64,000 nucleotides of DNA from Tannerellaceae bacterium (GTDB lineage: Bacteria; Bacteroidota; Bacteroidia; Bacteroidales; Tannerellaceae): positions 1-64,000 of the forward strand of contig JAIRKZ010000149.1 of NCBI GenBank assembly GCA_031259845.1, written 5' to 3'. This document shows positions 4,121 through 54,993 of the stretch, piece after piece. Position 1 is the first letter of the stretch, and every line of letters starts with the position of its first letter. The position numbers and the translations under genes are program-made. The notes beneath the pieces are model-generated. The model searched no databases, was not told the origin of the DNA, and saw only the letters and a list, made by a program, of their open reading frames with translations.

Positions 4121-4137
4121 AATCAGTAAATAAAAAA

Positions 4138-4492
4138 TTGCAGCCTGCCTGTAAGCCGGGTTCTGTGCTTTCAATGGAAAAAGCGCCTGCCATTTATCTT
4201 GGCTTACCGTTGCCGGTAAGCTCCAGCGGCCTACCCCCCGGCATCGGACGAGCCATCCTACATGCGCCGGTGTACATGGCCTTACAACCCATAAGACGTA
4301 CGGCGTAGCATATCACTATACTACCGGTGAGCTCTTACCTCGCCTTTTCACCCTTATTCCGCAAGCGGAACGGTTCTTTTCTGTTACATTACTCTGCCTT
4401 TGCAGACAGCTTCCCGTTAGGAAGTATGGCGCTCTGTGTTGCCCGGACTTTCCTCCCAATATTTCATTGAGCGGCAGGCCGGCAGGCTGCAA
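4138..4492 (-). ncRNA. rnpB: RNase P RNA (class A)
   Basis: The minus strand reads GGAGGAAAGTCCGGGC near its 5' end, which is the universal P4 region, and ACAGAACCCGGCTTACAGGC near its 3' end, the matching universal 3' sequence. The ends TTGCAGCCTGCC and GGCAGGCTGCAA are perfectly complementary over 12 bases and form helix P1, which sets the boundaries. The size, about 355 bases, fits bacterial RNase P RNA. This RNA is the catalytic part of the enzyme that trims tRNA 5' leaders. ORFs called across it are shadows. Confidence 0.95.
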
Positions 4493-22628: not shown

Positions 22629-23107
22629 GTTATTTGTTTGTTCCTTATCATCTTTTAAAAAGCATTCTGTTATTTTACCCCTCCCTGTTTCGCCGATTTG
22701 TACGCCATCCGGGATAACCTCTGAAAACACGCCGCATTAGGTGCTTACCTTTTGATAAAATGACATAAAAAGGATGATAGTACAAACTATATGTGCGCAA
22801 ATGAATCCTTCGCAGATGCAAAACAAAGCTAAAAACAACTGTTTGCTCAATAAAAACAGCAGGTAAAAACACTTGTTCCAGCGATATTTTGAGCCTTCGG
22901 AAGCCTCTTTTCCGGGCGCTTTCGAGCCTTCCGATTTTTCATTGCGATTTCAATGTTAACTTCCAAATATTTTTACTGTTTTTAACTAAATGTCGTTTGG
23001 TTAAGCTATAACTTCTTCTTATTCATGTAAGAAACTTTTTTTGTTTTATGATTTCCGGGATTAGTTCTGCCGGGCCTTATGATTTCACAGGTTTTCATCA
23101 TTAGCTC

Positions 23108-23380
23108 ATCAAAGGCTATTAACCTGATTGAGGATAAACGTATATCCGTCCGGAACAGCGTTATGGATACGTACCGGATCATCCTGTTGTTTTATTGCCG
23201 GCATAATGAAGAAGTATCCGTTAGTTCCCAGTCGTTTAATCTTTCCACAATTGTGAGGCGAACGGCTCACCCGTGTGGGACGAACGGCTCACAAGGGTGG
23301 AACGGTCGCCCCACAATTGTGGAAAGATTAAACGGAGGCAATGAAAATATGAAATATCTATGAAGCAGTCAATAAAATTA
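23108..23380. repeat. palindrome-rich dispersed repeat, copy A
   Basis: This intergenic stretch shares ordered blocks with 54725-54993: GGCTATTAA, TTGTTTT.TTGCCGGCAT, AAGTTCCCAG-like and CACAATTGTG, and a tail GAAAT..C...GAAGC..TCAATA. Its core holds a 28-base inverted repeat (23234-23261 against 23306-23333) with 27 matches, enclosing two copies of CGAACGGCTCAC 22 bases apart. No convincing gene lies between 22629 and 23676 apart from this. The 94-residue and 65-residue ORFs there look like chance. Confidence 0.65.
23234..23333. repeat. 28-bp inverted repeat with CACAATTGTG ends
   Basis: The left arm contains CTTTCCACAATTGTG and the right arm CACAATTGTGGAAAG, each embedded in a 28-base arm with one mismatch. 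The loop of 44 bases carries the direct repeat CGAACGGCTCAC. The structure could fold as a long cruciform or RNA hairpin. Confidence 0.7.
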
Positions 23381-23676
23381 TACGCCCTTAGCGAAACATA
23401 AACACCCACAACACGGAAAATTCCGATAATTTCGTCTGGGGTAAGCAGGCATATAATGCCAGTTGTTCTGAACCGGCCTTATCGCTTTTGCCGCGTTGAC
23501 CATTGACAACCATTTTATTTGCAAAGGAGAATCAATCCATAGACACAACCCTTTGCTACTCAATAAATAATACCAAATTTTCATCACAAACAACTTGCCT
23601 TTATCGGCTAAAATGTATATTTTTGACATGTTTTTCAAATAATATCTTGCCGATAACAGCAATTTATAAACTTTAA

Positions 23677-27091: not shown

Positions 27092-27151
27092 GTTCAGGGC
27101 AAACGCACGAAAATAACGAACTTTTCCGATTTCAAACATAGAAACTTAATT

Positions 27152-27207
27152 CCTGTTTTCCTGTTTTCCTGTTTTCGTGTTTTCGTGTTTTCGTGTTTTC
27201 GTGTTTT
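27152..27207. repeat. 8-bp tandem repeat (seven units)
   Basis: Three CCTGTTTT units are followed by four CGTGTTTT units without interruption, in the gap between the propeller gene and the sigma factor. The unit is not a multiple of three, which argues against coding. Such a tract is prone to slip-strand copy-number change. Confidence 0.85.
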
Positions 27208-41275: not shown

Positions 41276-41622
41276 AGGGGTGTACGACAAAATTCCTAAT
41301 CAGCTTTCTTTTACATCGCAGCACCCCCCATGCAGCAACCCATTCAACGAAAAAAAGCGAACAGGCCAGACATGGTACATAAAGCCCCCCCCTTGCTTTC
41401 ACCCCAAACAATTAAAAAATATCCGATTTTCAGTCACACCTATCTGTTGGAATATAAGAGCCTTATGTGAAATGTGACTGAAAACAGCGAAAAAAATAAA
41501 GTTTTTGTATGCTCCTATACCGCGTAACGTATAGATATGATTAGGGATTAGATAAGCTGCCCCAACATTTTACACCGGTTTACCGGGATTGGAATCTATA
41601 AGGAATTTTGTCGTATACCCCT
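41276..41622. mobile_element. 347-bp element with 25-bp terminal inverted repeats
   Basis: The left end (41276-41300) starts AGGGGTGTACGACAAAATTC and the right end (41598-41622), reverse-complemented, starts AGGGGTATACGACAAAATTC. The 25-base ends match at 23 positions. No gene lies inside; the 65-residue ORF at 41280 is a read-through of the repeat. An inner perfect inverted repeat TTTTCAGTCACA/TGTGACTGAAAA is near 41427-41484. No target duplication is obvious. The layout resembles a MITE, and a related end occurs alone at 6391-6427. Confidence 0.55.
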
Positions 41623-49810: not shown

Positions 49811-49864
49811 TAGAAAATGGTGCAACAATGAAGATTCACATCTTCATTGTTGCACCATTTTCTA
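49811..49864. terminator. perfect 25-bp stem hairpin
   Basis: The arms 49811-49835 and 49840-49864 are perfect complements with a four-base TCAC loop. The left arm starts TAGAAAATGGTGCAACAATG. It lies between the convergent trpB and DUF3836 genes and probably ends both transcripts. A perfect stem of this length is unusual for a terminator and the outer ends are A/T-rich on both strands. Confidence 0.8.
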
Positions 49865-54724: not shown

Positions 54725-54993
54725 GGCTATTAATAGCCTGAGTTTGGAATAAGCGTATCCGTATGTAACGATGTTATGCATCCGTAAGCGAATCATCTGG
54801 TTGTTTTGTTGCCGGCATGATGAATAAGTAATCATAAGTTCCCAGCCTTTTCCATTGCTCACAATTGTGACTGGGGTCAGTCACCCTCGTGACAGGATTC
54901 GCTCACAACTGTGAACGGATCCTGTCACGAGGGTGAGCGGCGGAAAACATAGTGGGAAAAGCCTGAAATCTACCGGAAGCCATCAATAGAATA
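54725..54993. repeat. palindrome-rich dispersed repeat, copy B
   Basis: This stretch is collinear with copy A at 23108-23380 (shared TTGTTTTGTTGCCGGCAT-like, AGTTCCCAG and CACAATTGTG blocks, and a GAAATCTACCGGAAGC tail). Its own core is a different inverted repeat: 54881-54901 (TCACCCTCGTGACAGGATTC...) against 54916-54936, with 20 of 21 matches around a 14-base loop containing TCACAACTGTGA. No gene is seen between 54511 and the next susC other than a possible small ORF. Confidence 0.65.

Follow-up and report, generated by a model that had tools for sequence, protein, structure and literature searches.

Arrays of four palindromes paired with a clade of HU-HIG proteins mark a family of mobile-element-like intergenic repeats in gut Bacteroidales

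Two intergenic repeats, at 23.1 kb and 54.7 kb of a 64,000-nt stretch of a Tannerellaceae genome (assembly GCA_031259845.1, contig JAIRKZ010000149.1, positions 1 to 64,000 of the forward strand; hereafter the window), are probably gene-less copies of a mobile-element-like family. At the core of each copy lies an array of four short palindromes, which we predict from the sequence to be bound by a protein of the HU-HIG family (PF18291) and which may possibly act as an origin-like site for copying by PrimPol-VapE proteins. The anatomy and distribution of this family, which resembles miniature inverted-repeat transposable elements (MITEs), and the pairing of its four-palindrome site with one clade of HU-HIG proteins are well supported; binding of the array by HU-HIG is likely, and replication-based spread of the elements is put forward here as a hypothesis.

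The array is 76 bp long and is composed of 10-bp palindromes, CAC-N4-GTG, with 12 nt between units; together with conserved flanking blocks it makes up an element of ~ 260–270 bp (Table 1). The central tetramers (N4) read, in order, AATT, CCGT, AAGG and AATT in the 23.1-kb copy, and AATT, CCTC, AACT and GAGG in the 54.7-kb copy. The original prediction had placed two copies here, with outer blocks in the same order and differing cores, and both were found as described: the outer blocks were 77% identical over 82 aligned nt, and the two copies with the core included were 63% identical over 263 nt. The long inverted repeats that it saw in the middle of each copy are indeed palindromic and different between copies, but are better described as the series of CAC-N4-GTG units given above.

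Table 1 Coordinates of the two repeat copies in the window and of their parts
Feature	Position	Strand	Basis and remarks
Subfamily 1 element, gene-less copy	23117..23388	+	At least three other genome copies cover -129..+142 of array start; boundaries approximate
Left conserved block, common to subfamily 2	23117..23232	+	Alignments among copies in this genome
Left arm CGTTTAATCTTTC	23233..23245	+	Inverted repeat I1
Array, four CAC-N4-GTG palindromes, 22-bp pitch	23246..23321	.	Units at 23246, 23268, 23290 and 23312; exact pattern match
Right arm GAAAGATTAAACG	23322..23334	+	Inverted repeat I1
Right conserved block	23335..23388	+	Alignments among copies in this genome
Subfamily 2 element, gene-less copy	54731..54988	+	-129..+128 of array start; edges are indel edges against orthologous locus L145; boundaries approximate
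Array, four CAC-N4-GTG palindromes, 22-bp pitch	54860..54935	.	Units at 54860, 54882, 54904 and 54926; exact pattern match

BLAST alignment of positions 23100–23380 to the whole assembly (genome G000; 3.66 Mb in 204 contigs, 87% complete) returned ~ 20 places, the best of them 94–95% identical over 130–340 bp, and the boundaries of copies genome-wide coincided at about -129 and +142 from the array start. A search of this kind had been named in advance as the test of a family of dispersed intergenic repeats whose flanks are conserved and whose palindromic cores vary; further copies with common boundaries were found, so the family stands. Pattern scans using only anchors and spacings, with the reversed pattern as control, gave 57 matches in this genome for two units (up to 1 mismatch) and 17 matches, corresponding to 16 arrays, for four units (up to 3 mismatches), versus zero for the reversed control in either case.

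Two subfamilies were distinguished in the genome, with spacers of type RRNCGNNCGNYY (subfamily 1, the 23.1-kb copy) and of ACAGGNNCCTGT-like type (subfamily 2, the 54.7-kb copy), and the window holds one copy of each. The cores look swapped because both subfamilies have their outer blocks in common, and the difference between the two window cores mainly reflects membership of two subfamilies with different matching HU-HIG genes. Most arrays have exactly four units. Copies with one unit (contigs C50, C183, C168 and C187) or three units (C61, C25, C62 and C164) in G000 are read as losses or decay, and a few other lineages carry five or more.

The 54.7-kb copy has an orthologue in the genome of a related member of the Tannerellaceae (locus L145), where the flanking sequence is 86–92% identical and the outer blocks agree at 98/110 and 40/50 positions. 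Within the core, 24/24 anchor bases, 24/36 spacer bases and just 4/16 tetramer bases were identical; since both loci were found by their exact anchors, the anchor conservation is biased upward, while the contrast between tetramers and flanks is unbiased. This comparison of one orthologous copy supports either exchange or very fast change of the core tetramers. Less change was seen in other orthologous pairs, with zero tetramer change in L225/L136 (B. xylanisolvens and B. finegoldii). Of the earlier proposal that the palindromes are exchanged or grow by recombination, the first part gains from this site, with tetramers differing at 12/16 positions between intact anchors. Growth is left unsupported, because four units are the usual number and the arms within a copy are not consistently more complementary than arms taken from different copies.

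The same comparison of arms bears on the view that the element is an RNA or single-stranded DNA hairpin (a terminator, stabiliser or processed RNA) selected for folding, which we regard as improbable. Overall dyad symmetry, outer arms that pair well over 127 arrays and a median distance of 109 bp to gene 3′ ends as against 212 bp to 5′ ends are what such a hairpin might display, but no Rfam family matched the element, and within subfamilies the suggested check for RNA covariation came out negative, same-copy pairing of arms not being consistently above cross-copy pairing in 12 groups. Dyads centred on units pair about as well as dyads centred on spacers, so that no one fold stands out, and arms that fit other copies about as well as their own are what a protein-binding consensus predicts.

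Clustering of the genes next to arrays produced one large family, HU-HIG, and one family of PrimPol/VapE proteins; five array-linked proteins matched PF18291 above the cut-off (E-values 1e-27 to 1e-37), and the PrimPol genes near arrays were of the PrimPol(BT4734-like)/VapE-DUF3874 kind. Across 148 array loci, all HU-HIG neighbours (17/17) and all PrimPol/VapE neighbours (9/9) lay no more than 290 bp away and had their 5′ ends facing the array; in these loci no gene of either family was seen beyond that distance. The array is positioned about 36–240 bp upstream of HU-HIG genes. In G000 one HU-HIG gene (C175:7051) has a subfamily 1 array upstream and another (C136:58309) a subfamily 2 array; in P. 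vulgatus ATCC 8482 three HU-HIG genes, at 806664, 2282671 and 2976642, have CAC/GTG arrays, one for each of the three types present there, and in B. xylanisolvens the dispersed arrays of GGCC type match the HU-HIG gene at 2552963. When solitary arrays were compared with HU-linked ones, 32/39 were nearest to the HU-linked array of their own genome. The other seven, all belonging to subfamily 2 of G000, were nearest to that of a Tannerellaceae metagenome-assembled genome (L115), with the HU-linked array of their own genome second.

Scoring of the ~ 450 bp before HU-HIG genes for the 24 anchor bases gave 19–24 for array-bearing upstream regions, with random windows mostly at 10–13. In a tree of 56 HU-HIG proteins, a single group of 32 (support 100/97) contained all 22 array-bearing members; the 24 proteins outside it included no array-bearing one. 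Additionally, some full-length HU-HIG genes from genomes without CAC/GTG arrays were accompanied by four palindromes at the same 22-bp pitch with different anchors, GACNNNNGTC-like in L352 and L370; other such genes lacked them. The AlphaFold2 model of the C175 protein displays an HU fold followed by a winged helix (pLDDT 90, pTM 0.56), and its best match among solved structures was BVU_2165 of P. vulgatus, at a low overall TM-score. HU-HIG matches numbered 15 and 34 in two Bacteroides genomes.

Some arrays belong to larger, gene-bearing units. The B. xylanisolvens array at 5865516 sits in a 4.18-kb unit, which encodes a 720-aa BT4734-like/VapE/DUF3874 protein and a 154-aa open reading frame (ORF) and ends in mirror-image TTTTATTGTCAGCC motifs, spaced 80/23 at the left end and 23/80 at the right. 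BT4734-like proteins are a family of archaeo-eukaryotic primases, and the VirE/VapE domains of mobile elements are predicted to be helicases (PMC5862659). A relative carries this 4.2-kb unit too, 95% identical to that of B. xylanisolvens and at a different place, with other flanking genes (L402:2039-6214 and L403:2211-6426). Another B. xylanisolvens array, at 2009926, has the same kind of ends without genes; the orthologous locus of the relative has both ends and no array, as would follow from either loss or non-gain. In P. vulgatus each of the three types has its own end sequences of ~ 95–115 bp, inverted left versus right in types B (L412) and C (L419), which lie near the array in solitary copies and past the HU-HIG or VapE gene in gene-bearing ones. 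Inverted ends common to gene-less copies and a gene-bearing relative, the mark of a MITE, were thus found in B. xylanisolvens and P. vulgatus, and in these two species the solitary arrays resemble gene-bearing units with inverted ends, to which they would be related by internal deletion. In one B-type VapE element of P. vulgatus (L412:5331-7725), an insertion resembling IS66 genes seems to interrupt the sequence.

A search of 295 genomes of the order for the three-unit pattern found it in G000, in G205 of the same family and in G258 and G030 of other families, with one further match in G105, apparently in coding sequence; reversed controls were zero in all 295. The four-unit scan over 84,980 species genomes yielded at least 118 stretches, and among the matches listed most came from Bacteroidales (Bacteroides, Phocaeicola, Parabacteroides, Tannerellaceae and Prevotellaceae). 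Array architecture was constant across lineages and the sequence lineage-specific. About 23 arrays of three types were counted in P. vulgatus ATCC 8482 and about ten in B. xylanisolvens, and 8/13 sampled genomes of the genus of P. vulgatus had no CAC/GTG-anchored array. The four-palindrome elements, small and mobile-element-like, apparently form a family that is widespread in gut Bacteroidales and undescribed: the open literature yielded neither a description of such arrays nor a DNA site for the HU-HIG family, most subscription papers, including the original HU-HIG description, lying outside the search.

Several intergenic positions are occupied by different array types in different species, namely the queC-queF gap (L240, L110, L181), the 3′ end of murF (L144, L190, L228), the 3′ end of an ABC ATPase gene (L127, L143, L206, L209) and recR (L259, L153); likewise, the array at the 3′ end of recO (L413, L267) is of a different type in G000 and in P. 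vulgatus. This would fit functional sites that are conserved, hot spots of insertion, or positions that were inherited while their sequence was overwritten. An alternative that draws on these positions (the first four in particular) takes the arrays to be HU-HIG operators only, autoregulatory before HU-HIG and PrimPol genes, with the solitary arrays as regulon operators or chromosome-structuring sites maintained by selection and not as mobile sequences. Placement upstream of HU-HIG and PrimPol genes agrees with it, and so does the absence of copy-specific arm pairing, as fits protein sites. We nevertheless consider it rather unlikely, given the long outer blocks and sharp ends that solitary copies have in common, the 94–95% identity between some copies at unlinked places, the frequent siting beside gene 3′ ends or between convergent genes (25/85 versus 23/152 control gaps) and the occurrence of the 4.2-kb unit at different places in two genomes.

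A number of observations weigh against a mobile-element-like family read by HU-HIG. Where orthologous positions carry different array types, the arrays can also be interpreted as functional sites instead of insertions. No gene of the 4.2-kb B. xylanisolvens unit was recognised as a recombinase, and visual inspection of the ends of P. vulgatus L412 and L419 showed no clear target-site duplication. In G000, no PrimPol/VapE gene lay near the arrays examined, a gene-bearing parent was not found near the arrays (in a genome that is incomplete and was not searched whole), and both array-bearing HU-HIG genes stand without PrimPol. No recognisable upstream array was found for eight HU-HIG genes of the clade (L345, L348, L350, L354, L356, L357, L358 and L367). 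Finally, the correlation of protein and half-site distances in Mantel tests, which speaks for the pairing (r = 0.50 for the HU part and 0.49 for the winged helix, 0/5000 permutations as high, n = 36), may arise partly from shared ancestry.

With these points taken into account, the mechanism that we propose for the mobile-element-like family has steps of unequal standing. About four HU-HIG dimers per array would likely bind its palindromes and shape the DNA, and HU-HIG bound in this way would likely control its own gene and the PrimPol gene. Less certain are the steps in which the array would be an origin-like cis-site where PrimPol-VapE copies the element, and in which copies without genes could still spread as long as array and ends are kept. 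The cores in the window would then differ because of different HU-HIG partners and because tetramers and spacers can turn over fast with the CAC/GTG anchors fixed. More tentatively, and as something possible rather than probable, the elements could form a class of mobile element without a recognisable recombinase, in which a PrimPol-helicase and an HU-winged-helix protein act on the four-palindrome, origin-like array, gene-less derivatives spread by replication and each lineage has its own lock (the array) and key (HU-HIG).

Among the known systems closest to the arrays are repetitive extragenic palindromic (REP) sequences. REPINs and REP-BIME elements with a REP-associated tyrosine transposase (RAYT) are dispersed, short, palindromic and mostly intergenic repeats, lineage-specific and with one partner gene per lineage (PMC3116915, PMC2817692). 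The arrays share with them dispersed palindromic intergenic repeats, lineage-specific sequence and a single partner gene, and Y1_Tnp genes are present in some array-bearing genomes. They differ in that the partner found is HU-HIG, the four palindromes stand at a fixed 22-bp pitch and there is no consistent Y1 gene. The look for a RAYT that the original prediction advised turned up only two Y1_Tnp fragments in G000 and no Y1_Tnp match in array-bearing P. vulgatus ATCC 8482 (complete), B. finegoldii, P. faecalis, P. oris and two B. caecigallinarum genomes. Because there are array-bearing complete genomes without a Y1_Tnp gene, REP/REPIN-like spread by RAYT is refuted as a general explanation, and we give it hardly any credence. 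No GTAG or CGTC end tag was apparent in the array sequences inspected, though no systematic scan was made. CGTC-tagged REPs, single or dimeric tagged hairpins without a dedicated transposase (PMC3733652), are comparable as palindromic repeats lacking such an enzyme, but have no four-unit array and no HU partner.

The BrickBuilt MITE of Porphyromonas gingivalis, found essentially in that species and with about 19 copies in a genome, is built from a variable number of 23-nt direct repeats AGAYCATARTATCCTCTCRTRTG and has IS5-type inverted ends GAGACCTTTGCA (PMC4596501). BrickBuilt and the elements described here are both MITE-like intergenic elements of Bacteroidales with a short-period repeat between leader and tail. 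Identity with BrickBuilt was rejected, the unit here being 22 nt and palindromic (CAC-N4-GTG) rather than AGAYCATARTATCCTCTCRTRTG, and the end sequences in P. vulgatus and B. xylanisolvens differing from GAGACCTTTGCA. Iteron origins and PrimPol replicons likewise have repeated sites beside a primase-helicase gene, as with the archaeo-eukaryotic primases of mobile elements (PMC5862659); the arrays described here differ in being chromosomal, with tens of gene-less copies, and their origin role is putative. As to the HU-HIG family itself, the partner proteins are members by Pfam, and for one clade of them we propose the four-palindrome array as the DNA site.

Two other sources were considered and set aside. 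A phage origin was rejected with only 3 pattern matches in the viral collection, and a plasmid or virus replicon because PrimPol-VapE plasmid and virus records yielded no clear circular replicon. One faecal scaffold deposited as a bacteriophage (MT838091.1; L429:2129-2204) carries a four-unit array with AAC/GTT-like anchors upstream of a PrimPol-VapE gene. A B. finegoldii record labelled as a plasmid (NZ_OY725909.1, L432) has the appearance of a chromosome fragment, with argC and genes for glycoside hydrolases.

Elsewhere in the window, a bacterial RNase P RNA of class A was located at 4136–4490 on the minus strand. A 25-bp inverted repeat (92%; 41276–41300 and 41598–41622, ~ 300 bp apart) between two same-strand genes resembles an invertible promoter, a perfect 25-bp inverted repeat with a 4-nt loop (49811–49864) between convergent ORFs is terminator-like, and at least six tandem copies of an 8-bp unit (TTCCTGTT/TTCGTGTT) lie between ORFs at 27142–27205.

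HU-HIG proteins have many members per Bacteroides genome and their role is little known; for one clade, the array before each protein's own gene now provides a predicted DNA target. Through the arrays, these proteins become connected with PrimPol-helicase genes and with repeats dispersed in such common gut bacteria as P. vulgatus, B. xylanisolvens and Parabacteroides, and the paired variants of protein and site offer a natural set for studying how DNA recognition changes. Recombinase-free, replication-based spread becomes testable in laboratory commensals, and the elements may reveal an unusual kind of mobile element.
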